From Clostridia bacterium (GTDB lineage: Bacteria > Bacillota > Clostridia > Christensenellales > Aristaeellaceae), in NCBI GenBank assembly GCA_017431005.1, contig JAFRLY010000001.1, positions 52,451 through 116,450 on the forward strand: 64,000 bases of DNA. The letters are read 5' to 3'. The stretch's first letter is position 1; each line of letters starts with the position of its first letter. A model generated the notes under the pieces. That model had not been told where the DNA came from. It searched no databases and worked only from the letters and a program-made list of their open reading frames with translations. Below, piece by piece: positions 38,995 through 50,511 of the stretch. A program made the position numbers and the translations under genes.

Positions 38995-39867
38995 TCACTG
39001 CAGCGTCTGCTGCAGGGTTTTGACCAGATAGCGCTGGGCGGAATTGTAGATGGACTGCCCCAGCGCCCGGGAATCCGTGCCGGAGGCGTTGACCGTGATG
39101 TTTACCGGCGCCTCCACGGAGCGGGAAACGGAGGAGGCAGGCGTACCTGCGGCAGCGGCGGCGGAAGCGTCCGGCAGGCCGGCGATCGCGGAGGAAACGA
39201 TGGAGGCGCTCAGCTGCAGCGGCGAGGACGCGTAAGCGGCGCGGATGGCGCTCAGCGCGGAGGAGGCCGCGGAGATCACGGCGGAGGTATCCGCCGTCAG
39301 ACTCAGGGGCTGCCGTAGCAGCCGCTGCAGCTCGGAAAGGGAAAGATCCGCCCGGGTGCGGTCCAGGCGGAGCGGCAGGGCGGCATCCGTTTCGGAAAGC
39401 GAGGTCTGAAAGGATGTGAGCTCCTTGGAAGCCTCCGTCAGATCCAGGGCTGCCGGGATCTCTGCGTCGGATACAGCGATGTCCTGCAGGAAGCTCTGCA
39501 GCTCCTCCCCGGCGCCGGACAGATCCAGATGAATTTCAGATGCGGAGCTGTCCGGATCTCTGATCCGGGAAACGGCTTCCGTGCGCAGGCTGTCCGGGGA
39601 AACAAGCGCAAGCGGAAGCTGCCCGGATAACACCGGACGCATTTCAGCGGCTGCGGGAGCGGCATCCGCGCGGTTCTGAACCGGCGCCGGAACAGACGTT
39701 TCAGCGGCATAGGACACATAGGTGTCCAGGTCCGCCCATGCCTGCTGAAAGGCAGAGGATAGAGATTCCGCCAGAGAGCGGTTATCCTCCAGCACGGACT
39801 GCAGCCGGGCCACGCCGGCCTCGTCGATCTCCACGGCATAGGACGCCAGAAATTCCTGATCAGGCAT
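38995..39867 (-). CDS. short tail tape-measure protein
   Basis: 290 aa, Ala/Ser/Leu-rich and mainly helical, with C-terminal VNITVNASGTDSRALGQSIY and a helix to the end, which is the usual C-terminal cap of tape measures. Tail length scales with this protein at about 1.5 angstroms per residue in known phages, so the tail would be only about 45 nm, much shorter than usual contractile tails (600 or more residues). No peptidoglycan hydrolase domain. Start overlaps the end of the chaperone extension frame by eight bases. Alternatively it is a truncated relic. Confidence 0.65.
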   Translation of the reverse strand: MPDQEFLASYAVEIDEAGVARLQSVLEDNRSLAESLSSAFQQAWADLDTYVSYAAETSVPAPVQNRADAAPAAAEMRPVLSGQLPLALVSPDSLRTEAVSRIRDPDSSASEIHLDLSGAGEELQSFLQDIAVSDAEIPAALDLTEASKELTSFQTSLSETDAALPLRLDRTRADLSLSELQRLLRQPLSLTADTSAVISAASSALSAIRAAYASSPLQLSASIVSSAIAGLPDASAAAAAGTPASSVSRSVEAPVNITVNASGTDSRALGQSIYNSAQRYLVKTLQQTLQ

Positions 39868-40651: not shown

Positions 40652-42196
40652 ATGACGGGCGGAATCAATGATGAGCAGATCAGGCAGATGTCAAAGACGA
40701 TCTTTCGCTTTTGCCTGTCCAGAACGGGCTCATACCATGACGCCGAGGACCTGGCGCAGGAAATCCTGCTTGTCGCCTGCAAGACCACCAATCATTTTGA
40801 AAGCGAAAAGGCTTTCTACGCATTTGTCTGGAAAACAGCAGGCAACATTCTGAAAAGCTGGTACCGTAAGCAGTCCGGGCACCGCACGGAGAAACTGGAT
40901 GAAGACATGCCTGATCATCGGTATGAGGAACTGGAGGAACAGATTCAGGATCATGAGCAGCTTTGCCGGATTCTCCGCAGCCTCGCAGGGATTTCATCTG
41001 ATTACCGGCGCGCTACGGTGGCCTATTATATTGACGGACAATCCGTCCGTGAAATCGCCGAACGCTTTTCCCTGTCCGAAAGCATGGTGAAATACCTGCT
41101 GTTTCAGTCAAGAAAACGTATCAGAGAGGGAATCAATATGGATATGGAATCGGGCAGGCTGAGTTATGACCCTGTAGACCTGACGTTGATCTTCTGGGGC
41201 GGAAAATGCGTCTATTATGATATCTTCAACGAAAACAGGCTGCGCCAGAACATTGTGATGGCCTGCTATTATGACAGGCAGACCGAGGAGCAGCTGAGCC
41301 TGCAGCTCAGCGTACCCACCGCATACCTGGAGGATGCGCTGAAAAAGCTGCTGGAGTATGACCTGCTGAAGAAAAAAGGCCTGACATACCAGAGCAATAT
41401 TGTGATCATTACAGGAAAGGAACTGGAAGCCATCGACCGGCATAACAGGACCGATCTGGAAAAAACTGCCATCAGCATCCGGGCATTCGCCGAAGCATAT
41501 ATGGACGAACTGCGCGCGCTTGGGTTTTGCGGCAGCGACCTGCCGGAGAATTCACTCAGGTGGATGCTGGTCTCGCTGATTCTCCGCCGGGCCTATGTGG
41601 ACCTGTTGCAGCGCGAGGTAACGCTGGATTATCCGACAGACTGCTTTGGCGACCGCTGCTTCCGCTTCCTGATGGAACTGCCAAAAAACGACCCATACTT
41701 TATGGGTATTTCCGCACAGGGTTCTAAGGACGGTACTGTCTTCCTGTGGGATGTGCCGCTGAACGGGGAAGCGCTGCATCCGGTGGTCAGCCCGGTACGG
41801 GCAGACATGCTCATCTCCCTTCCGGATTCACAGCCGGTTACAGACAGCGAAAAGCTCATCTGCTCCGAACTGCTGGAACTGGGTCTGGCCCGAAAGGAAG
41901 GTGAAAGGATCCTGCCGGCATTTCCCTACCTGAGCGCGGAACAAAGCAGGGCCCTGAACAGCCGGATCCTGCCGGTTGCAAAGGACATTTGCGATGGCGC
42001 TGTGAACCGGATTGACGGGATCTCCCGGATCATGAAAGAATATGCTCCGGAACACTTGGCTGATTACGCCAGGAAGCTTCCCGCGCTGATCCAGATGAAG
42101 GAGGGGGAGGCCATTATGCGCATACTCTGTGAAAGCGGCTGGCTCCTTCCCATGAAGGACTGCCTGGCAACTACCGTGATGATGAGGAACAAATAG
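40652..42196 (+). CDS. ECF-type RNA polymerase sigma factor with large C-terminal extension
   Basis: 514 aa, start ATG behind AAAGGAATTCAAAG. Residues 1-70 are sigma region 2 (SYHDAEDLAQEILLVA, FVWKTAGNILKSWYRK) and 105-165 region 4 (VAYYIDGQSVREIAERFSLS, a helix-turn-helix). The remaining about 345 residues are an unusual extension; its first part (about 195-255) looks like another winged helix (QLSVPTAYLEDALKKLLEYDLL). Ordinary ECF factors are about 170-200 aa. It lies on the plus strand in the middle of the phage tail genes with lower GC than they have. The extension could act as a built-in anti-sigma or sensor domain. Confidence 0.8.
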   Translation: MTGGINDEQIRQMSKTIFRFCLSRTGSYHDAEDLAQEILLVACKTTNHFESEKAFYAFVWKTAGNILKSWYRKQSGHRTEKLDEDMPDHRYEELEEQIQDHEQLCRILRSLAGISSDYRRATVAYYIDGQSVREIAERFSLSESMVKYLLFQSRKRIREGINMDMESGRLSYDPVDLTLIFWGGKCVYYDIFNENRLRQNIVMACYYDRQTEEQLSLQLSVPTAYLEDALKKLLEYDLLKKKGLTYQSNIVIITGKELEAIDRHNRTDLEKTAISIRAFAEAYMDELRALGFCGSDLPENSLRWMLVSLILRRAYVDLLQREVTLDYPTDCFGDRCFRFLMELPKNDPYFMGISAQGSKDGTVFLWDVPLNGEALHPVVSPVRADMLISLPDSQPVTDSEKLICSELLELGLARKEGERILPAFPYLSAEQSRALNSRILPVAKDICDGAVNRIDGISRIMKEYAPEHLADYARKLPALIQMKEGEAIMRILCESGWLLPMKDCLATTVMMRNK

Positions 42197-42237
42197 GACA
42201 TCCATGCTGGAAAGATCAATCGGGATTTGGAGGGACG

Positions 42238-42765
42238 ATGACGATGATCATTCGGAGAAACGATTTAGTCATTCGTGATGCAGGGAAGGCTGATTGTGAT
42301 CAGCTTGCCGCATGGTGGAGTGATGGAAAAGTGATGGCACATGCCGGTTTTCCTCTCGGCCTCCATACAACACCCGATGAGATAGAAGCCAAAATATCTC
42401 AGGACAGTGATGAAACAAGACGCAGGCTCATCATTGAATACCAAGGTAAACGTATTGGTGAGATGAGCTACAGTATTGAGGATCAGACAGCTGAGATCGG
42501 GATAAAGATCTGTGATTCCTCATATCAGGAAAAAGGGCTGGGTCGAGTATTATTAAGTATGCTGATCCGTGAGCTTTTTTCACGCGGATATTCAACAATC
42601 AAGCTGGATACAAATATGAGCAATGTGCGCGCTCAGCATGTATATGAAAAACTTGGTTTTCATCAGGTACAAGTCCACGAGAATTCCTGGAAGAACCAAC
42701 TCGGCGAATTACAATCCTCTGTTGATTATGAGCTTACTCCGGAGGCATTTATCGATTTTTCCTGA
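42238..42765 (+). CDS. GNAT-family N-acetyltransferase
   Basis: 175 aa, clearly AT-richer than its surroundings (low 40s percent GC by eye), a sign of separate origin. GNAT motifs: EIGIKICDSSYQEKGLGRVLLSMLI is motif A with the acetyl-CoA loop QEKGLG, and NVRAQHVYEKLGF is motif B. Start at ATG 42238 or 42244 behind GGAGGGACG. Follows the sigma factor gene by 41 bp on the same strand, so likely cotranscribed. Most like the ribosomal-protein or small-molecule acetyltransferase type; target unknown. Not the GNAT toxin layout, since no DUF1778 partner is present. Confidence 0.85.
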   Translation: MTMIIRRNDLVIRDAGKADCDQLAAWWSDGKVMAHAGFPLGLHTTPDEIEAKISQDSDETRRRLIIEYQGKRIGEMSYSIEDQTAEIGIKICDSSYQEKGLGRVLLSMLIRELFSRGYSTIKLDTNMSNVRAQHVYEKLGFHQVQVHENSWKNQLGELQSSVDYELTPEAFIDFS

Positions 42766-42831: not shown

Positions 42832-42866
42832 CCGGCAGGGAGCGGAGAACTCCCTGCCGGTTTTTT
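42832..42866 (+). terminator. terminator after the GNAT gene
   Basis: CCGGCAGGGAG-CGGAGAA-CTCCCTGCCGG followed by TTTTTT. It directly abuts copy 1 of the structured repeat and may form part of that unit. Confidence 0.85.
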
Positions 42867-42968
42867 GCGATCGTCGCAATCCACTCAGACTGCGCTTTCG
42901 CTTGTCTTCGTGGGCTCCTGTAGCATAGGAGGCGTTACCCAAATCATAGATTTGGACGCCTCCGCATC
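42867..42968. repeat. structured repeat, copy 1
   Basis: 102 bp from GCGATCG to CATC, abutting the stop codon of the tail tube gene. Plus-strand reading: stem 1 GAC-T-GCG-CTTT-CGC-TT-GTC (about 42887-42905), the constant core CTGTAGCAT, then stem 2 GGAGGCGT-TAC-CCAAATC-ATA-GATTTGG-ACGCCTCC (42928-42963). Copy 2 at 49884-49989 has the same frame with paired changes in both stems. No transposase or known family is recognised. Confidence 0.8.
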
Positions 42969-43398
42969 ATTTCTCCGTCACCTGGGCGGCCAGCAGTGTG
43001 TAGGTCAGGTTTGAGGACGTGCGGTCATAGGTCCGGTCCGGCACCTTCTGCACGGTAACGCCGGTCATGAAGATCGTGCGGCTGCCGGCGGTGTCGTACA
43101 CGGTGAGGGTGCCGAGCGTGAACCGGGAGGAATCGCAGGTCCGGAGATAGCGGGCAAACTTTGAGAGAAAATCATCCGCGATCGAGTTTTGCGGCACCTC
43201 CAGGGTGATCGTTCCGTTTTCGGATTTCAGCTTATTGACCACCACATAGCCATCGGCGGTGGTGGTATGGGAAGACAGATCCCCCGAATAAGAGATGACC
43301 ATTTTTCCCCGCCCGCAGAGATGCAGGTTGGCCTGCCCCACGTTCGGGTGGTACAGCACCGTGCGGGTATCCGCGAGGGAGTAAACTGCGTAGCTCAT
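42967..43398 (-). CDS. phage tail tube protein (DUF3277-like)
   Basis: 143 aa beta-rich protein: SYAVYSLADTRTVLYHP at the N-terminus and TLGTLTVYDTAGSRTIFM in the middle, matching the small tube proteins of DUF3383-sheath phages. It forms the inner tube of the contractile tail. Follows the sheath gene by 17 bp. Its stop codon touches the structured repeat, and two host-type genes on the other strand then separate it from the chaperone gene that normally follows. Confidence 0.75.
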   Translation of the reverse strand: MSYAVYSLADTRTVLYHPNVGQANLHLCGRGKMVISYSGDLSSHTTTADGYVVVNKLKSENGTITLEVPQNSIADDFLSKFARYLRTCDSSRFTLGTLTVYDTAGSRTIFMTGVTVQKVPDRTYDRTSSNLTYTLLAAQVTEK

Positions 43399-43415
43399 TC
43401 ATCTCACCTGCCTTC

Positions 43416-44540
43416 TCAGATCACAACATTGACCGCGATCACAATGGACTCGACGGACCCTGCCAGCAGCAGGGCCACTTGGACCGGCATCGCCTTATGC
43501 GCGGCCCGGTCGGCGTCCGGCTGATTATCGTAGGAATCCGCCCAGAGGGTGAAGCCGTTCTCCGGCATATCCCCGGCTGCCAGCGGCCCGGCGGTGGCTC
43601 CCCGCCATACGCCGGTGGCCAGCACGCCCCGGTCCGCAAAGCCGGACAGGACGGCGGAGAACCGGTTGATGAACTGCGCGGTGGTGTCGTCCGTCTGCGG
43701 CAGGCGGGAGCCGCTGTCCGCCAGCAGGGACACCGCCTCCGTCTGCAGGGCGTCCGCGATCATGTCCAGATACAGCGCCTCGTCATACCGCATCCCGGAG
43801 GCGGTGGTTCCCTTCTCCAGCAGGAGATGGGTGAAGCCCCGGGTCACATAGACATTGCCGTTCAGGGCCTGGATCGCATCAACCTCGGCCTGCGTCAGAT
43901 TCTGCGGCTGGATTCCCTGTACCGTCTGATAGCACAGGGAGAAAGCGGAGGCGGCATGCGCTGCCTGCAGCCCCATGGCGGTGCCCATGACAGCGGCCGC
44001 GTCGGAGGGCTCAGCCACGTAAGTCACCAGAACTCTGCGGGAAGAAAGATTAAAAAGTGATTCCAGCAGGCTGCCGGAGGCGGTGACGGAGGCCGGCGTG
44101 CCCGTGACCGGGAGGAAGAGCATCATCGGATGCTCAGCGGAGCGGACCGCCTCGTCAAGGGCCAGCAGCGCGGCCTTGTCCGCAGCGCCGGCCGGGAAGA
44201 CGCCGTAGAAGCCGGAGGTTTTCTGCAGAGCCGCGGCCAGGGCGGCAGCGGGCGTCTCAGCGGAAGGATAGCAGGAGACCAGGAGGCGGGCCGGGGAGGG
44301 CGAAGCCCCGAAATACTTCAGCGCGGCCTTGTATGCCTCGTCCGCGGCGGTAAAGCCGGCGGATATCAGACCTGCGGCCGCCTCTGTTGCGGAGGCGAAG
44401 GTCAGCAGGCGCTTCTCCTCCGTGAAGGAGGCGCAGGGAGCCAGGATCAGACCGTTATCGAAGGCCGAAGCGGAGGCAGAGGAGCGGACCGCGTTGACCA
44501 CAACCCGGGCGATGGTATTGGTACTGAGCGTAATAATCAC
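43416..44540 (-). CDS. phage contractile tail sheath protein (DUF3383-like)
   Basis: 374 aa. The N-terminal segment and the C-terminal part NGFTLWADSYDNQPDADRAAHKAMPVQVALLLAGSVESIVIAVNVVI resemble the subtilisin-sheath fold end with a final beta arm. ITLSTNTIARVV at the start and the Ala-rich Rossmann-like centre fit DUF3383 sheaths. Family role: forms the contractile sleeve around the tube. Gene order sheath, tube, chaperones, tape measure is standard for myophages. Confidence 0.75.
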   Translation of the reverse strand: MIITLSTNTIARVVVNAVRSSASASAFDNGLILAPCASFTEEKRLLTFASATEAAAGLISAGFTAADEAYKAALKYFGASPSPARLLVSCYPSAETPAAALAAALQKTSGFYGVFPAGAADKAALLALDEAVRSAEHPMMLFLPVTGTPASVTASGSLLESLFNLSSRRVLVTYVAEPSDAAAVMGTAMGLQAAHAASAFSLCYQTVQGIQPQNLTQAEVDAIQALNGNVYVTRGFTHLLLEKGTTASGMRYDEALYLDMIADALQTEAVSLLADSGSRLPQTDDTTAQFINRFSAVLSGFADRGVLATGVWRGATAGPLAAGDMPENGFTLWADSYDNQPDADRAAHKAMPVQVALLLAGSVESIVIAVNVVI

Positions 44541-45130
44541 CTCACTGACATCAGAATATCAGGCGCCGTGTTTACAGCCGGCAGGGAAACGGCAATCTCA
44601 TCTCTTACGCGGAGAGAAACGGAGAGATCCGCCCGGCGGCGCCAGAGGGAGCCGGCCGGCTCCCGGAGAATCAGCGCCTGGGGCGGATCCGGAATCGGGT
44701 AAATGCCGGCGGCGCGGAGAATGCTCCGGGGCTTTCCGTTCCCGTCCAGATACAGCAGCGCCCGGATCCGGTGCGCGTGCTCCTCGGCGTACGGCCCGTA
44801 GCAGACGATGATCAGCCGCCAGGCCGGGAAGGACCGGATTTCCGCGGGAATCTCCGCTGCCGGCCCGGGCTCCGGAGGCCGCAGCCCGTCCGGGCTCCGC
44901 AGGGTAAAGACAGCCGGAACCTGCATCTGCGGCCGGACGGCGGCTGCGTCCTCCGTTTCCAGATAATAGTAGACGACGTCCCGCTCCCGGGGAGGCCTCG
45001 GCGCGTTCTCCGGCTCGGTGTATGCCGGCTGGATCAGGGCGGAGGCAGCCGGGGAATCAGGCGCCAGGCCCAGGCAGGCGCACAGGGCGGTCCAGATTGC
45101 CTCATTCATTACAGTGCTTTCAGTGTTCAT
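44537..45130 (-). CDS. phage tail terminator-like protein (LIC_12616 type)
   Basis: 197 aa, start ATG 45130 behind AGGAGAATCCGG. Segments VYYYLETEDAAAVRPQMQ and WRLIIVCYGPYAEEHAHRIRALLY match the small neck/tail-terminator proteins that cap contractile tails (LIC_12616 family). Overlaps the sheath gene by four bases. Confidence 0.65.
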   Translation of the reverse strand: MNTESTVMNEAIWTALCACLGLAPDSPAASALIQPAYTEPENAPRPPRERDVVYYYLETEDAAAVRPQMQVPAVFTLRSPDGLRPPEPGPAAEIPAEIRSFPAWRLIIVCYGPYAEEHAHRIRALLYLDGNGKPRSILRAAGIYPIPDPPQALILREPAGSLWRRRADLSVSLRVRDEIAVSLPAVNTAPDILMSVR

Positions 45131-45141
45131 CCGGATTCTCC

Positions 45142-45648
45142 TTATCTGCTGACAATTTCCCAGGAAAAGGCGCGGTAAAGCCCGCCGGTATCGTAAAGCG
45201 GCCGGTCAAAGCCCTTCCCGGAGATATAAACCCCCTTCCCGGCGGGACGGTTGTAAATCCATCCCCCGTGGACGGTGACCGGACTGTTCCCGGGAGCAAT
45301 CCCGGCGTCGATGTATGCCCGGATGCCGTCCGCCCCGAGCTGTCCGCAGGCCTCCAGGGCTGCCTGCGTCTTCGGCAGGTCGCCGGCATGGGCGGCCGCG
45401 GCCGCTTCGCGCAGGGCTTCCGCCATTCCGGCCCGGGTTTCCGGCCGGGAAAGCGCGGGCCGCACCACCGGCCGGGGCGGAATGCGCATGACCGGGGAGC
45501 CGTGCTCCTGGATGGCCAGGAGGAACCGGGCCCTCGCCGGGGCGGAGGCCGGAAGCCCGGCCTGCACGGCATGGCCGGAAAGCCAGCGCAGCGCGGCGTT
45601 CCGTTTCTCCTGCGCGGCAGTGTTTTCAACGGTTCTGAGCCGGATCAG
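45142..45648 (-). CDS. phage neck/head-tail joining protein (HK97 gp10-like)
   Basis: About 168 aa if started at CTG 45648, seven bases after a perfect AGGAGG; no ATG, GTG or TTG fits better, though an ATG at 45762 opens a longer frame without a ribosome binding site. The C-terminus YDTGGLYRAFSWEI and PPRPVVRPAL fit gp10-like neck proteins (RPFmRPAL then DTG-L motifs). Joins head and tail. The start needs checking. Confidence 0.65.
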   Translation of the reverse strand: MIRLRTVENTAAQEKRNAALRWLSGHAVQAGLPASAPARARFLLAIQEHGSPVMRIPPRPVVRPALSRPETRAGMAEALREAAAAAHAGDLPKTQAALEACGQLGADGIRAYIDAGIAPGNSPVTVHGGWIYNRPAGKGVYISGKGFDRPLYDTGGLYRAFSWEIVSR

Positions 45649-45758
45649 AAAATCACCTCCTGAACGCGGCGGATTTTTTTTCGGGAAAATGACGGTTTTG
45701 CGCTGACGCCCCGGAAATTCATGCGTATACATAAATGTGACCGGTGAGCATTCGAGGC

Positions 45759-46166
45759 TCACGGCACATACATTCCGAAGGTATGCATGCGGATGAGCGC
45801 CAGCAGCTGAAGGCCGTAAACGGTTTCCGGCAGATCCGCCAGGGAAGTCCGGCCGGCGGAGGCTGAAGAGGAGGAAGAGGACGCGTAGGTAACCGCGACC
45901 TCCCCGACCTTCTGGGAAGCAATCTGCTGCTGCTTCTCCCCGGCTGACGCGATGACCGCCATGGAGGCTTCGGTTCCTTCCGGCGGCGCGGATTTCGCGT
46001 AAAGCGTCAGCTTATGGGCGGCGTACAGCCGCCGGGCTTCCGCCGCGTCCTCCCCGAAGGAGGAGAAACGGGCGTTGGCCTGAAGCAGAAAGGTATCCAG
46101 CACCAGTGCCGGCTCAAACGCGGAAAACTGCGGATAGAAGGCCAGGAATTCCTCCCGGGTGATCAT
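45759..46166 (-). CDS. phage head-tail connector (DUF4054)
   Basis: 135 aa, start ATG 46166 behind GGAGGAAGCGCC, overlapping the upstream stop by four bases. ITREEFLAFYPQFSAF with the helical centre ARRLYAAHKLTLYAKS and LAALIRMHTF-like end is the DUF4054 pattern of capsid connector proteins that follow the capsid genes in this phage group. Confidence 0.8.
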   Translation of the reverse strand: MITREEFLAFYPQFSAFEPALVLDTFLLQANARFSSFGEDAAEARRLYAAHKLTLYAKSAPPEGTEASMAVIASAGEKQQQIASQKVGEVAVTYASSSSSSASAGRTSLADLPETVYGLQLLALIRMHTFGMYVP

Positions 46167-46561
46167 GGCGCTTCCTCCTCTCCGCTTTCCTCCGGCTTTT
46201 CCTCCGGAACAAGCACTGCGGTTCCCCTGCAGAACCGGAACACGGTCCAGGGCTCCAGGGCAACCAGCCGCCAGACGCGGCCGTCCCAGTGAATGCGGTC
46301 CGGAGGATGGTAGACACGGCCGAGGTTTTCCCCCATGCAGAGCGGAAAGGCCGTGTAGATGACGATGAACTCTTCCCGGCGGTCTTCCTCCGGGAGCATG
46401 GTGGCCTGATCGGCCTGCCCGGGCTGGACGCAGCCGACGGTGGGAATCAGGACGCCGGAGGTTTTCTCCGCGGCGCCCTTGCGGCGCCGGACGGCGGAAC
46501 GCTCCACCGTGAAGCTGGCGGCTCCCATGCCGGGGCTCGACAGAAGCGCGGAAATGTTCAA
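46163..46561 (-). CDS. phage head-closure/collar protein
   Basis: 132 aa. I set the start at TTG 46561, seven bases after AGGAGGG; the only upstream ATG (46630) has no ribosome binding site. Sequence FTVERSAVRRRKGAA then DRIHWDGRVWRLVALEPW shows the small beta-barrel of head-closure proteins (gp16 of SPP1-like). Overlaps the DUF4054 gene by four bases. Confidence 0.65.
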   Translation of the reverse strand: MNISALLSSPGMGAASFTVERSAVRRRKGAAEKTSGVLIPTVGCVQPGQADQATMLPEEDRREEFIVIYTAFPLCMGENLGRVYHPPDRIHWDGRVWRLVALEPWTVFRFCRGTAVLVPEEKPEESGEEEAP

Positions 46562-46647
46562 GCAAAGGCCCTCCTGTGAGGTGCCGCCGGAGAAAGGATC
46601 TCCGGCGGCGGATTCGGAAAAAGAATGCAATCGGGCAACGGATATGG

Positions 46648-46653
46648 TATTAT
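46648..46653 (+). promoter_or_regulatory. extended -10 promoter of the inserted secreted-protein gene
   Basis: TGG-TATTAT, an extended -10 (TGnTATTAT), 56 bp before the ATG at 46709. No convincing -35. It gives the inserted gene its own transcription start, opposed to the phage genes. Confidence 0.35.
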
Positions 46654-46708
46654 GTTCAGATGCCCGGGAATGCGCCTCAGGCGCGGAAAGAGAAAGGAGT
46701 ATTACTCA

Positions 46709-47335
46709 ATGAAAAAGTTACAGAAACTCGCATCCCTGTTCATGGCCGCGGCCCTGTCCCTGACTTCTGCGGCTGCCCTGGCGGACATCATCGCTCCGGA
46801 CGATTCGGATTATGATGATCTGGCCGGCGTCACGGTCAACGCGACGGTCGGTGAATATCACGAAGCGGACAATACCTTCACGGTCACCCTGTATGCCGAC
46901 GACGTCTATGAGATTGATGACATCGATGAGCTGAAGAAAGGCGACATCGTGCTGGCGGGCGGCCAGGTCTTCGAGGTCGCTGACAAGTCTGTCGACGAGT
47001 TCGGCGAGACCCTGGTCAAGTGCACCAACGGCTGGGAAATCATCTTCTCCCAGGTGGGCGATGACAAGATGATCGCCATGAACAATGAGGATGAACGCCG
47101 CTTCATGCACGTCTTCGCGCAGCTGCAGCTGCCGGTTGCCGGCGGCATTACCTTCGAGGATGCCTCCAACCCGGATGAGAAGCCCGTGACCTACACCGGT
47201 CTGCAGGAGATCCTGAAGATCAAGCAGGAGAAGGAAACCAACAGCATCGGACTGGATTTCTACGCCACCGTGATCACCATGAACAAAAAGATGGAGATCG
47301 TAAGGATTTACCAGGAGTTTGACGTCGCGCAGTAA
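46709..47335 (+). CDS. secreted protein of unknown function inserted in the phage module
   Basis: 208 aa, start ATG behind GAAAGGAGTATTACTCA. Residues 1-24 are a signal peptide ending SAAALA|D, then an acidic, beta-rich protein with VYEIDDIDELKKGDIVLAGG and VEDKS-like repeats, perhaps an SLBB- or transglutaminase-free adhesion-like fold; I do not recognise a family. No sortase signal. It lies opposite to the phage genes between the head-closure and capsid-side genes and carries its own promoter and terminator, so it is a host cargo gene. Its signal-peptide style matches that of the binding protein at 6888. Confidence 0.75.
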   Translation: MKKLQKLASLFMAAALSLTSAAALADIIAPDDSDYDDLAGVTVNATVGEYHEADNTFTVTLYADDVYEIDDIDELKKGDIVLAGGQVFEVADKSVDEFGETLVKCTNGWEIIFSQVGDDKMIAMNNEDERRFMHVFAQLQLPVAGGITFEDASNPDEKPVTYTGLQEILKIKQEKETNSIGLDFYATVITMNKKMEIVRIYQEFDVAQ

Positions 47336-47348
47336 AACCGCGCTTCGG

Positions 47349-47639
47349 TCAGGCTCCGGCAGGGGAGGCCGCGCTGCTTCGCGCGGCCTTCTCTTTTTTG
47401 CGTCCGGATTCCGCCGCGGCTTCCGCCGGGGTCTCCGGATCATTCTCAAGCGCCTTCTTCTGGGCGGCGGACTGGGCCACCTCCAGGGAGCGCTCCGCCA
47501 CCAGCAGGGCAAAGAGCGGATCCTGGCGGATCGCCTCCGGCGCCTCGACGAAGGTCAGCCGGTCGGCAGGGGTAACGCGGAACAGTGTGCCGCCCTGTTT
47601 ATCATGAAACGAGACGCACACCCGGGATAAAATCAGCAT
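47349..47639 (-). CDS. small phage protein downstream of the capsid gene
   Basis: 96 aa, start ATG behind GGAGGAAAACC. N-terminal half FHDKQGGTLFRVTPADRLTF followed by a helical, Glu/Ala-rich tail. Such short proteins follow DUF2184 capsid genes in related phages; function unknown. The C-terminal codons double as the terminator stem of the inserted secreted-protein gene, suggesting that insertion altered this end. Confidence 0.6.
   Translation of the reverse strand: MLILSRVCVSFHDKQGGTLFRVTPADRLTFVEAPEAIRQDPLFALLVAERSLEVAQSAAQKKALENDPETPAEAAAESGRKKEKAARSSAASPAGA
47366..47396 (+). terminator. terminator of the inserted secreted-protein gene
   Basis: AGGCCGCGC-TGCTT-CGCGCGGCCT followed by TCTCTTTTTT. 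It lies within the last codons of the small phage gene on the other strand. Confidence 0.8.
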
Positions 47640-47651
47640 GGTTTTCCTCCT

Positions 47652-48617
47652 TTATATGCCGTCCATGTACCTTACAGTACTGGGATACAGGAAACGGACT
47701 TCGGAGAACTGGCAGATATAGGGAATCTTGATCCGCATCTCCGCGTACTCCGTATCCATCCTGCGCAGGGGCTGCGTCAGGTTGAAGCAGATCCGGTCCG
47801 GCTGGTTCATGTAGGCCACGATCCGGTCGGTGCCGCCGGAGCCTGCGCCGGTGCACCACTTGCAGGGGGAGATCACCAGATTCCCGCCCTGCTGGGCGGT
47901 CAGGTTGTTCTCCAGGATGTAGGTCAGGATGGACCGCTCGGAATCGTCGGAAACCTTCCGGGTTACCAGCTGGCCGAACTGCGCGACGGGCACCAGGATG
48001 TGGTTCGGCAGCGCGTCGGAGGAGCAGTCGTTGTCCGCCCAGGTTTCGGCGAGAATCGTGTTGATGTCCGCCAGAATCTCATCCGCGGTCTTGGCTGCCC
48101 ATTCGGTTTCGCCGCTCTCCGTCTGTCCGGCGGAGGAGCGGGTCACGATCGGGGAGGTGCACAGGCCGTAGCTGTTCACCTTGCGGAAGCCCTGGTAGAC
48201 GTTCCGGTCGATCATCTTGTCGCAGTGGAGCCGGATGCCCTTGTTCAGGAAGGTTTCCGGATCCCGGCCCACCTGGGCCATCTTTTCCCGCTCCATCGTG
48301 GAGAAGGACATGTATTCCGCGAAGTTGAAGGTTCGGGCCACCGCCTTGGACAGGTCCGCCTGGATCACCGGGATGTCGTTGGCCGCCTCAAAGAAGAGGC
48401 CGTCCTCGTCCCCGCCGGTGGAGGCGTAGGTCACGTCGATGCTCGCGATGGATTCCACGAGCCCGCCGCCGGTGACGACGGGCATGTCCCGGGGCCAGTC
48501 CGTGCCGGACAGCGGCTCCAGGATGGTTTCGTCCACCTTCTCCAGCTCCTTCATCAGGAAGGTGTAGGAGTCGTTGGCCAGGATGGACGGGGTCAGCGCG
48601 CGTGGAGTTCTGATCAT
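47652..48617 (-). CDS. major capsid protein (DUF2184)
   Basis: 321 aa. Contains MVPVAQF-type and VDVTYASTG, FEAANDIPVIQADLSK, RNVYQGF and late LRRMDTEYAEMRIKIPYICQFSEVRFLYP, the pattern of DUF2184 capsid proteins (HK97 fold). Follows the cement-like gene by 11 bp. With DUF1073 portal and DUF2213 protein this forms the standard head set of this phage group. Start ATG behind GAGGTGAAATGAT. Confidence 0.8.
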   Translation of the reverse strand: MIRTPRALTPSILANDSYTFLMKELEKVDETILEPLSGTDWPRDMPVVTGGGLVESIASIDVTYASTGGDEDGLFFEAANDIPVIQADLSKAVARTFNFAEYMSFSTMEREKMAQVGRDPETFLNKGIRLHCDKMIDRNVYQGFRKVNSYGLCTSPIVTRSSAGQTESGETEWAAKTADEILADINTILAETWADNDCSSDALPNHILVPVAQFGQLVTRKVSDDSERSILTYILENNLTAQQGGNLVISPCKWCTGAGSGGTDRIVAYMNQPDRICFNLTQPLRRMDTEYAEMRIKIPYICQFSEVRFLYPSTVRYMDGI

Positions 48618-48628
48618 ATCATTTCACC

Positions 48629-49117
48629 TCACATCAAATTACGGGTCACCAGCACGACCTCGGCCATGCCGTTGGCGTCCCGGCCGGTGCGGAAGCGGCA
48701 GCCCGGGATCATGAGCGTGCTGGAGGAGGACGCGGAAACGGCCTTGCCGGTGTCCAGGTTGATGTACACCTGCTTGCCGGGCAGGATGCCGCTGCCGGCG
48801 GCCTCGAGAACGATCGAGCCCCGGGTCAGCACGTCCACCATTTCACCTGCCTCATAGGCGCCGCGGCTGTTCTCATCCTCGGTGCCGTAGACGTTCGGCG
48901 TCTTGGCGGGAGAGCGGACAGCGAAGCCCAGGAAGGTTTCCGTGCCGGCGCCGGCCTGAATGCCGGTAACGCCGGTGCGCTCGGAATCCTGGAAGACCGG
49001 GGATCCGAAGGGAATCGCCGTGCCGGACACGTTGGCATAGGCTTCGACGATGTCATCCACCGCGCGGGAGATCGCTCCAGCCCAGCCGTTGGGAAAACCG
49101 GAAATCACTTTACCCAT
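48629..49117 (-). CDS. capsid cement/decoration-like structural protein
   Basis: 162 aa beta-rich protein, start ATG behind GGAGGTGACGATTC. PFGSPVFQ and GILPGKQVYINLDTGKAV fit the small decoration (gp24/DUF2190-like) proteins found between the DUF2213 and DUF2184 genes. It would stabilise capsid joints. Confidence 0.65.
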   Translation of the reverse strand: MGKVISGFPNGWAGAISRAVDDIVEAYANVSGTAIPFGSPVFQDSERTGVTGIQAGAGTETFLGFAVRSPAKTPNVYGTEDENSRGAYEAGEMVDVLTRGSIVLEAAGSGILPGKQVYINLDTGKAVSASSSSTLMIPGCRFRTGRDANGMAEVVLVTRNLM

Positions 49118-49134
49118 GAATCGTCACCTCCGTA

Positions 49135-50511
49135 TCAGACCCTGCAGTTGATGTTGCGGCTCGCCATGATCCGCCGGCCCAGCTCCGCGGGATCCGCGGC
49201 GCGGTCCTTCCTGCCGGCCCGGGCCAGGGCGGCATAGGCGCCCGGGGTGCTCTGCCGGCTGTCACCGGCGGTCCTGCGCAGCCGGCGGGCGATCTCGCCG
49301 CACACCTGCTTCCGCTGCTCCTTCGGCATCCGGGCGATGGCCGGGCGCACGGCCTTCAGCGCGGCGCGCACCGCGTCGGCGGCCAGGGGGTTCTGCTCTT
49401 CGCATTCGTCCGCGTCCTGCTCCGGCTCCAGCACGGTGGAGGGCTCCAGCACCTCCTCCATGATTTCGGCGATCTCCCGGGTATCGGCGTCCGCGGGCGC
49501 TTCCGCGGCGGCGCCGGCCTCCACGGCCTTGGCGACCGCTTCCGCGATTTCGGATACGGGGTCGCTTTCCTCGTCTGCGGCGGCGGGCGTCAGCAGCGCG
49601 ATGATCCGGTCCAGCCGCTCGAGAATCGCGGCCTCCGGATCGCTGTCCTGACTGGCTTCCGTCTCCTCCGCGGGCGTTTCGGCGGGCGCTTCCGGGGGAT
49701 ACCCGACGACAATGGTCTCCGGCGCCTCAGCGGGGGCGGCCGGCAGCTCTTCGGTCAGGTTCTCGACAATTTCCGCCACAGCCTCAATGGCTTCCGCGTC
49801 TCCGTCCCGCGCCATGCGGACCAGCTTTTTATACAGGGATTTCTTCATGCTTTTCAGGCTCCTTTCAGTCTTTGGCTTCTCGTGCGATCGCCGTTCACCG
49901 CTCTGACTTCGCAGACACTGCTCGTCAGTCGCGGACGGCTGTAGCATGGGAACCGTTACCCAAATCGAAGATTTGGACGGTTCCTCATCGCGTATGGATA
50001 CTCTCGGGCCGGCGCGTCCGGCGTCCACCACGGCGATATGGTTGCCGCGGATGTTCCGCTGCACGTACTGCCCGTTCTCCTCCCGCAGCTCATACAGGTA
50101 GCCGCAGGAGATTTCCCGTTTCCCGTCCTTCAGGATGGCGTCGATCAGCGTCCGGTCCTGGATGATCAGATCCGCCAGCAGCAGATCGGACATCTCTCCG
50201 GTTCCCCGGCGCACGTTGTGGGCGTGCCCTCTGGACAGGTACCGGACGTTTTCCAGGGTGACGCCGTCCGGGGGATGGTCGTTGGTCACCGGCATCCCCT
50301 CAAAGGACGCGATGGTCGCCGGGGAGAACACCTCCTCCGGCGGGCGGACCACAGGAATCAGGGGATCCCCCCGCGCCGGGGGCAGCCCAAGCTCCTGCGG
50401 CAGGTACTCCTGCGTGCCCGTCCGCGCCACCGGCACGTTCAGGCACAGCAGGTATCCCTCCGGTTCCCGGAGGGACAGGTTTTCGGATAACCGTGTTCCG
50501 TAGTACTGCAT
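49135..50511 (-). CDS. DUF2213 head protein (scaffold/protease-like) with in-frame repeat insertion
   Basis: 458 aa open frame, start ATG 50511 behind AAAGGAGGAAGC. Residues 1-174 are the DUF2213 domain (VTNDHPPDGVTLENVRYLSRGHA, then GNHIAVVDAGRAGPRVSIRD). Residues about 175-209 are encoded by copy 2 of the structured repeat. From MKKSLYKKLVRMARDGDAE (ATG 49848, ten bases after its own GGAG) starts an acidic helical C-terminal part of 237 aa. The frame stays open, but the internal start is well placed, so two proteins may be made. Family members participate in head maturation. Confidence 0.7.
   Translation of the reverse strand: MQYYGTRLSENLSLREPEGYLLCLNVPVARTGTQEYLPQELGLPPARGDPLIPVVRPPEEVFSPATIASFEGMPVTNDHPPDGVTLENVRYLSRGHAHNVRRGTGEMSDLLLADLIIQDRTLIDAILKDGKREISCGYLYELREENGQYVQRNIRGNHIAVVDAGRAGPRVSIRDEEPSKSSIWVTVPMLQPSATDEQCLRSQSGERRSHEKPKTERSLKSMKKSLYKKLVRMARDGDAEAIEAVAEIVENLTEELPAAPAEAPETIVVGYPPEAPAETPAEETEASQDSDPEAAILERLDRIIALLTPAAADEESDPVSEIAEAVAKAVEAGAAAEAPADADTREIAEIMEEVLEPSTVLEPEQDADECEEQNPLAADAVRAALKAVRPAIARMPKEQRKQVCGEIARRLRRTAGDSRQSTPGAYAALARAGRKDRAADPAELGRRIMASRNINCRV
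49884..49989. repeat. structured repeat, copy 2, inside the DUF2213 frame
   Basis: 106 bp from GCGATCG to CATC. Stem 1 GAC-TTC-GCAG-ACA-CTGC-TC-GTC (49904-49926), constant CTGTAGCAT, stem 2 GGAACCGT-TAC-CCAAATC-GAA-GATTTGG-ACGGTTCC (49949-49984). Relative to copy 1 both stems show compensating base changes while the core and the CCAAATC/GATTTGG pair are unchanged. In the minus-strand gene it encodes a linker peptide (SSIWVTVPMLQPSATDEQ and onward) without breaking the frame. Confidence 0.8.

Follow-up and report, generated by a model that had tools for sequence, protein, structure and literature searches.

Two copies of a structured repeat are present in a 64,000-nucleotide stretch of DNA from a Clostridia bacterium (GCA_017431005.1, contig JAFRLY010000001.1, positions 52,451–116,450 of the forward strand; hereafter the window), at 42867–42968 and 49884–49989, both on the + strand. 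On balance, we regard them as members of an undescribed-looking family of short mobile two-hairpin repeats of about 100 bp. The reading that we favour, with some reserve, is of a non-autonomous single-stranded-DNA mobile element resembling repetitive extragenic palindromes (REPs) and IS200, in which two tandem hairpins point in the same direction and are joined by a short linker. That the element moves follows from the filled and empty sites seen among relatives at an operon junction and at the end of a phage gene. A sequence-only reading of the window had first described the two copies and their shared blocks, all of which are present as quoted.

A dispersed repeat family

The string CTGTAGCATNGGANNCGTTACCCAAATC occurs twice in the window without mismatch, compared with 0 of 100 shuffles when up to three mismatches are allowed. 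In species-representative genomes the core pattern was found in 21 stretches, all from Clostridia or Clostridiales metagenome assemblies (one titled Subdoligranulum) and several from goat or roe deer gut, and the window's own genome holds eight copies of the exact core. The covariance-model search that the sequence-only reading had proposed was made with a model of hairpin 2 built from 26 sequences (R1), among which are both window copies (68.4 bits for copy 1 and 73.9 bits for copy 2). It found 10 matches in the own genome at E<1e-5. At E up to 0.01 with strict filters, 32 of the 45 genomes examined in the genus gave 267 matches in total (1–29 per genome) and the other 13 gave none. In a sample of the order, 8 of 297 genomes contained R1 matches, five of them from the same genus and three from one other genus. 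One IMG/VR contig related to the window's phage carries the exact core; GenBank phages searched with copy 1 and PLSDB plasmids searched with copy 2 gave no match.

No Rfam 15 covariance model matches the window at gathering score, which agrees with the earlier statement that no named family has this core. A known RNA family near copy 1 was considered and rejected: at E≤5 Rfam gave seven matches around it, all far below gathering score, and five of these cover the upstream terminator. There was no publication on this repeat family among the matches listed in open-licence full-text literature, and the matches listed for the core strings were, by title, chance ones such as primers.

Further analysis used 159 distinct copies, distinct in the hairpin plus 20 and 25 flanking bases, drawn from listed, mostly best-scoring matches, with orthologous sites of different species counted separately. 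These divide into a CAT subtype (52 copies, window copy 1 belonging here), a CAA subtype (85) and others (22). In one locus, L007 (2618–2909), three or more units stand in tandem with a period of 105 bp, and the array extends to where the stretch ends.

Two bulged hairpins with paired stem changes

The commonest unit consists of TGCGATCG, hairpin 1, CTGTAGCATGG, hairpin 2 and then CATC or CAAC/CAAT, and its commonest linker, CTGTAGCAT, puts GTAG at the foot of hairpin 2. Hairpin 2 comprises a variable 7-bp basal stem, which a bulged base may separate from as many as three further pairs, then a 3-nt bulge and a 7-bp inner stem. The bulge is on the 5' arm, with TTAC opposite A in 117 of 125 distinct sequences, and the inner stem is CCAAATC/GATTTGG in 104 of the 125, with paired exceptions such as CCGAATC/GATTCGG in five. 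Immediately before hairpin 2 stands CTGTAGC in 81 of 156 copies, CTGTAAC in 19, CTTGCGC in 11 and other sequences in the rest. A hairpin 1 with a 3-nt bulge, in the same direction as hairpin 2, was found in 97 of 156 copies and in 1 of 156 letter-shuffled upstream stretches; 91 of the 97 end exactly 3 nt before the start of the R1 model. The remaining 59 copies have another type of hairpin 1 or none.

The window copies differ in this respect. Copy 1 has a small foot hairpin (42867–42877) and a hairpin 1 of the other type, without the 3-nt bulge (42881–42913), followed by the linker CTGTAGCAT (42918–42926) and hairpin 2 (42928–42963), whereas copy 2 has a bulged hairpin 1 (49890–49939), the same linker (49939–49947) and hairpin 2 (49946–49988), all on the + strand. 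Folded as DNA, the + strand gives z-scores of −6.1 (copy 1) and −5.8 (copy 2), and folded as RNA −4.1 and −5.4, with 0 of 200 shuffles as good.

Between the two copies stem 2 changes from GGAGGCGT/ACGCCTCC to GGAACCGT/ACGGTTCC and stem 1 from GCG/CGC to GCAG/CTGC, as had been described, and compensation extends to the family. In the 26-sequence alignment both sides change in 8 pairs (4.2 when shuffled) and in 39 cells (8.4 when shuffled), a signal that is abolished by sliding the partner. Because most of these sequences were fetched by the core, conservation of the core in this sample is partly by construction; the outer stem was not used in this way. Among 875 outer-stem pairs in the 125 distinct sequences, 836 are Watson-Crick, 10 are G-T and 29 are mismatched (17 of them A-C), identical hairpins being counted once and the 8 of 159 copies whose match is not 47 nt being excluded.

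The sequence-only reading had taken such compensation to mean selection on the fold. The compensation stands, but the conclusion is too strong, since the same pattern would result if one arm were copied from its partner or if another copy replaced the unit. It is quite possible that the paired changes arose by template switching or replacement of this kind, with no selection on shape. The pairs are almost purely Watson-Crick with few intermediates, and the junction after a gene whose product ends in IDMDMDNVGFM, possibly a secY-adk junction by its appearance, bears three different stems in three genomes (L075, L247, L253). Five loci (L085, L086, L103, L121, L133) also have, by eye, the same junction where the hairpin-1 bulge meets another palindrome. 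The persistence of the hairpin-2 bulge in 117 of the 125 sequences argues against template switching, since arm-copying alone would tend to remove it, but the sample was found with a bulge-containing model.

In these five chimeric units everything 5' of the hairpin-1 bulge is, by eye, swapped for another palindromic repeat of the GATGAGATTTCCGCCACTGGCGGTCATCGG type. Elsewhere (L140, L141, L074, L285; L011, L018, L057) hairpin 2 is nested in two other palindromic repeats, GATCCTTGCT...GCTTCGCTCAGGATGAC and CCAGGGC...GCCCTGGACC.

CAT copies directly after stop codons

Fifty of the 52 CAT copies have enough flank for their offset from a stop codon, required to end a frame of at least 80 codons, to be counted. 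The stop lies exactly at the junction in 22 of the 50 (17 TGA and 5 TAA, window copy 1 included), and no other offset from −20 to +59 holds more than three copies. Six of the 22 come from the window's own genome (copy 1, L036, L039, L040, L043 and L045). By their C-termini the 22 represent about 19 gene contexts, three ending in IDMDMDNVGFM and two being the virion gene next to copy 1. Stop-adjacent copies have their + strand antisense to the gene, and the mRNA would therefore read stop, hairpin 2, hairpin 1. Many other CAT copies sit, by eye, inside other palindromes or tandem arrays. In the CAA subtype, frames at least 80 codons long terminate at the TGA of the element itself in 11 of 84 copies and at offset +5 in 5 of 84; the few such frames inspected pass through heptamer repeats, and these stops were not taken as native.

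In the window, copy 1 starts immediately after the TGA (TCA at 42967–42969, − strand) of a virion structural protein gene (phrog_280, 42967–43398, − strand), whose 3' end abuts it and which probably encodes the tail tube, given its position beside the sheath gene. Copy 2 lies within a single 458-aa frame comprising the head maturation protease and a following domain (49135–50511, − strand), which stays open through it. The earlier description of one copy touching a stop codon and the other within an open frame is thus borne out.

The exact adjacency may reflect aim or selection. That units land without targeting, and that selection keeps only those which, in tight operons, fall in the gap separating a stop codon from the next ribosome-binding site, is a real possibility. 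At the best-resolved site, the operon junction described below, several relatives read TGAAGGAG, in which the ribosome-binding site touches the stop codon; exact adjacency is the only harmless place there, and that junction is explicable by selection alone. Copy 1 argues for aim, because a terminator and then a convergent gene follow it and remove the operon constraint, yet it too is exactly adjacent. The distribution of offsets also speaks against untargeted landing, with +1 to +20 accounting for 9 or 10 copies altogether against the 22 at offset 0. We consider it unlikely, though worth stating, that insertion of the mobile element is aimed at in-frame stop codons. Such insertion would be tied to the termination of translation or to the strand exposed at that point and would have a fixed orientation, each new copy being an instant hairpin 3' end, and the sister subtype would park at heptamer arrays and follow the replication fork.

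Replication polarity and heptamer arrays of the CAA subtype

In the closed chromosome of G002, GC skew over 20 sampled stretches changes sign near 0.9 and 2.6 Mb, and all 20 full-length copies with listed coordinates (out of 29 matches; three of the 20 are not CAA) obey the replichore, with six on the + strand in the positive arc and 14 on the − strand in the negative arc. In G031, which has 21 matches in total, 17 of 19 listed full copies agree with this orientation, a copy at 1.82 Mb being excluded because its position falls between skew samples of different sign. At the level of the single 2.4-kb locus, skew agrees with the element strand for 40 of 41 copies from G001, G002 and G031, and flank skew is positive on the element strand in 74 of 85 CAA copies. 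Genes do not explain the orientation, because the coding strand, by a rough and noisy longest-frame call, agrees with the element strand in only 22 of 41 loci.

A flank with 7-nt periodicity (e.g. AATTCAG repeats) is found on at least one side of 48 of 85 CAA copies, compared with 1 of 52 CAT copies and 0 of 304 control windows; a stricter test (three units, right side only) retains 14 of the 85. The heptamers lean the same way as the elements but less strongly, with 62 of 87 overlapping occurrences agreeing with the skew arc. With one mismatch, the heptamer AATTCAKAATTCAKAATT has 91–720 matches per genome in G001, G002, G007, G017, G027 and G031 (0–46 for a backward control) and none in six other genomes, that of the window included. 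The variants AACTTAA, GTGAAGA and AATGAAC also occur beside elements (e.g. L222; right flank of L083).

Filled and empty sites

At the operon junction, shown for 28 genomes, the unit is present in three (G027, G001, G031) and absent from 25, of which 18 have only ~13–21 nt from stop to start codon (e.g. TGA AGGAGTCAGGAAAA ATG). The unit directly follows the TGA in G027, and in G001 and G031 there are eight extra bases between the old stop and the unit, the last three of which are again TGA.

The end of the virion gene was compared in 32 rows, two of which are one locus. The window and L220 have the unit directly after the TGA, and L227 has a related unit directly after a TAA (G020:C1:2409602-2409695), which was missed by R1 and found as a 79% DNA match. 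The unit follows the gene in the opposite orientation, between heptamer repeats, in L117/L217 (one locus) and L224, and a heptamer array without a unit follows it in L221 and L222; the remaining rows have no unit by eye. The encoded protein has TE[KQ] as its last residues in 22 of the 32 rows, most of them without the element, which shows that the stop codon before copy 1 is the gene's own.

Among 19 relatives shown for the protease frame, L191 has the unit at the same codon as the window, with stems that are different yet self-complementary, L188 has a partial chimeric hairpin and 17 have no unit by eye; the frame is open across the insertion point in relatives without the element too. No target duplication is visible by eye at the virion and protease sites, nor at the operon junction or between L217 and L222, where the sites are few, the flanks diverged and, in the second pair, the array repetitive.

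The phage module looks incidental to the element, because copies also occupy ordinary operon junctions. There is no stop in the 45 codons around the end of the protease frame in any of 21 rows (window 49135–50511 and L186–L205), so that the frame continues towards the next domain; that domain has a ribosome-binding site and a start codon of its own. A strong terminator at ~42835–42865 adjoins copy 1, and a sigma-factor-like gene and an acetyltransferase gene (40652–42765, + strand) lie on the strand opposite to the phage structural genes. A short peptide starting from an ATG that overlaps the stop codon was also considered, and shows no sign of coding because few positions of the 26-sequence alignment vary as much as the second base of its third codon. 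A possible degenerate third copy, hairpin 2 alone, matches at 39539–39585 on the − strand (44.6 bits; E 2.0e-8 in the own genome), within a coding frame (38995–39867, − strand) and with the inner stem CCGGATC/GATCCGG; no hairpin 1 is visible there by eye, and the match could be chance in coding DNA.

A possible route of movement and the search for a transposase

The bulged hairpins, the paired Watson-Crick changes and the replication polarity together suggest single-stranded DNA as the substrate. A Y1/HUH-type transposase, supplied in trans, could recognise the hairpins while the DNA is single-stranded and join the unit to a new place, in the manner of the TnpA proteins of IS200/IS605 and of REPs. 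Shape recognition would preserve the compensated stems, or the stems would be regenerated with one arm as template for the other. The transposases of IS200/IS605 and REPs are described as acting on single-stranded DNA (PMC6006769). Of the two main readings offered from the sequence alone, the palindromic mobile element gains from the dispersal of the family and from the filled and empty sites, although the transposase in trans that it called for was not seen in searches for the PF01797 type, and regulatory RNA is less well supported as its equal.

Several observations weigh against our preferred reading of a REP/IS200-like element. No transposase for the unit was identified in searches for the PF01797 type only. 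Y1_Tnp (PF01797) is present in 28 of the 45 genomes (drafts, 54–99% complete). These comprise 18 of the 32 genomes that carry copies and 10 of the 13 that lack them, and since its presence does not track the copies a simple link is disfavoured; three genomes (G017, G021, G038) have 19, 13 and 15 copies and no Y1 match. Thirty Y1 loci of ~3 kb each, out of 67 matches, contain no R1 match, and a structural hairpin scan of them gave 0 in 89 kb where ~0.8 would be expected from background, a scan that is weak alone. GTAG stands in the linker of only 81 of 156 copies, and no flanking consensus is seen by eye on the hairpin-1 side. The replichore rule is broken by a weak partial match at 2.358 Mb in G002 and by two full copies (2.26 and 2.37 Mb) in G031, and the stop-adjacent CAT copies have no polarity, flank skew being positive in 8 of 22. 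Finally, copies from related genomes are not independent, and those fetched are mostly the best-scoring.

The same strict hairpin scan, run on 680 kb of evenly spaced samples from two genomes, found six hairpins, three of which are by eye the element's own hairpin 1, and one after shuffling. An autonomous relative with the same ends was not found among the 30 Y1 loci, the transposases sought being of the PF01797 type. Pairing of the unit with a REP-associated tyrosine transposase (RAYT) in the own genome was rejected, as the hairpin that flanks its sole Y1 gene (L027, 245 aa) is another one, based on GTGCCAGGCACC. That locus (contig C51) carries several copies of the other hairpin, e.g. TGACACTGGTGCCAGGCACCGCTGTCA, around the Y1 gene and its neighbours, and looks like a true REP transposase locus.

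A structured regulatory RNA, in the 3' untranslated region or between cistrons, that has been copied around with its fold selected in RNA seems improbable to us. Orientation after stop codons is fixed in part of one subtype, and the minus strand of the window copies folds strongly as RNA (z −4.3 and −5.3), both of which speak for it. However, there are only 10 G-U pairs among 875 (17 if the other strand is read). Selection in RNA would be expected to leave G-U well in excess of A-C on one strand, and with counts of 10 and 17 there is little sign of it on either. The lack of an Rfam match in the window, the 13 of 45 genomes without a match and the orientation of the CAA subtype by replication, not genes, count against it as well. 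A regulatory RNA is not favoured, though an effect in the 3' untranslated region is possible. On the mobile-element reading, too, a unit after a stop codon would lie in 3' untranslated or intercistronic mRNA and, by analogy with E. coli REPs, may alter decay or translation. E. coli REPs ≤15 nt from a stop codon are reported to lower translation (PMC12306157). Plain local duplication of phage DNA, with two copies only, would fit their like orientation in one prophage but is excluded by the 21 stretches, the eight exact cores in the own genome, the 267 matches across the genus and the differing hairpin-1 types of the two copies.

Relation to known repeat families

Long REPs are described as having GTAG or GTGG 0–2 nt from a basal stem of 7–20 nt, a 1–3 nt bulge and a second stem (PMC6006769), a description close to hairpin 2, which has the basal stem, bulge and second stem. 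REPs are known to have alternative complementary stems, to lie close to stop codons and in some cases to occur in frame (PMC3733652). The present units resemble GTAG REPs in being short dispersed palindromes of hairpin-bulge-hairpin form with alternative complementary stems (PMC3733652, PMC6006769), in lying near stop codons with some copies in reading frames, and in their GTAG foot, where it occurs (PMC3733652). In contrast to those REPs, GTAG is not constant here, the hairpins form a same-direction pair, stop adjacency is exact, and G-T pairs, often seen in the published survey, are rare. The hosts named there are Proteobacteria, Cyanobacteria, Chloroflexi and the PVC group (Planctomycetes, Verrucomicrobia and Chlamydiae), whereas the present family is in a Clostridia genus. 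REP copy number is given as usually >100 per genome (PMC2817692), compared with 0–29 matches per genome across the 45 genomes, and, where REPs flank a REP-associated tyrosine transposase gene, no copy of the unit lies at any of the 30 Y1_Tnp loci examined (of 67 matches). Owing to these differences in host, copy number, direct doublet, transposase neighbour and exact stop adjacency, we file the family as a REP-like variant and not as REP.

REPINs, inverted REP doublets near RAYT genes, are thought to be a mobile unit moved in trans and share the hairpin doublet (PMC3116915). They differ in that the doublet here is direct, with the bulge of hairpin 1 on the same arm as that of hairpin 2, in 97 of 156 copies, no search for an inverted partner having been made in the other 59, and in that no RAYT was seen near the loci examined. 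The ends of IS200/IS605 and derived miniature elements likewise have hairpins near both ends on the same strand (PMC6006769), and they share with the present units a replication-related orientation and, as far as the few sites with diverged flanks show, the lack of a visible target duplication (PMC6006769). Unlike them, the family has yielded no autonomous parent or transposase in searches for the PF01797 type, and no conserved flank is seen on the hairpin-1 side.

Two further families were compared by description only. Rickettsia palindromic elements are about as long as the present units and may occupy an in-frame position within a protein-coding gene, as copy 2 and L191 do in the open protease frame, whereas 22 of 50 CAT copies follow stop codons instead. 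The bcr1 repeat of Bacillus cereus is a dispersed structured repeat in a Firmicute, and differs in host group.

Significance

These observations add a hairpin-repeat family in rumen and gut Clostridia in which empty and filled sites occur naturally, stem changes are paired and placement follows a sharp rule. The family bears on why REP-like palindromes collect beside stop codons, as the adjacency here is exact and in one orientation, and its ready-made junctions let aim be told from selection. The replichore-oriented sister subtype provides an independent handle on single-strand mobility.

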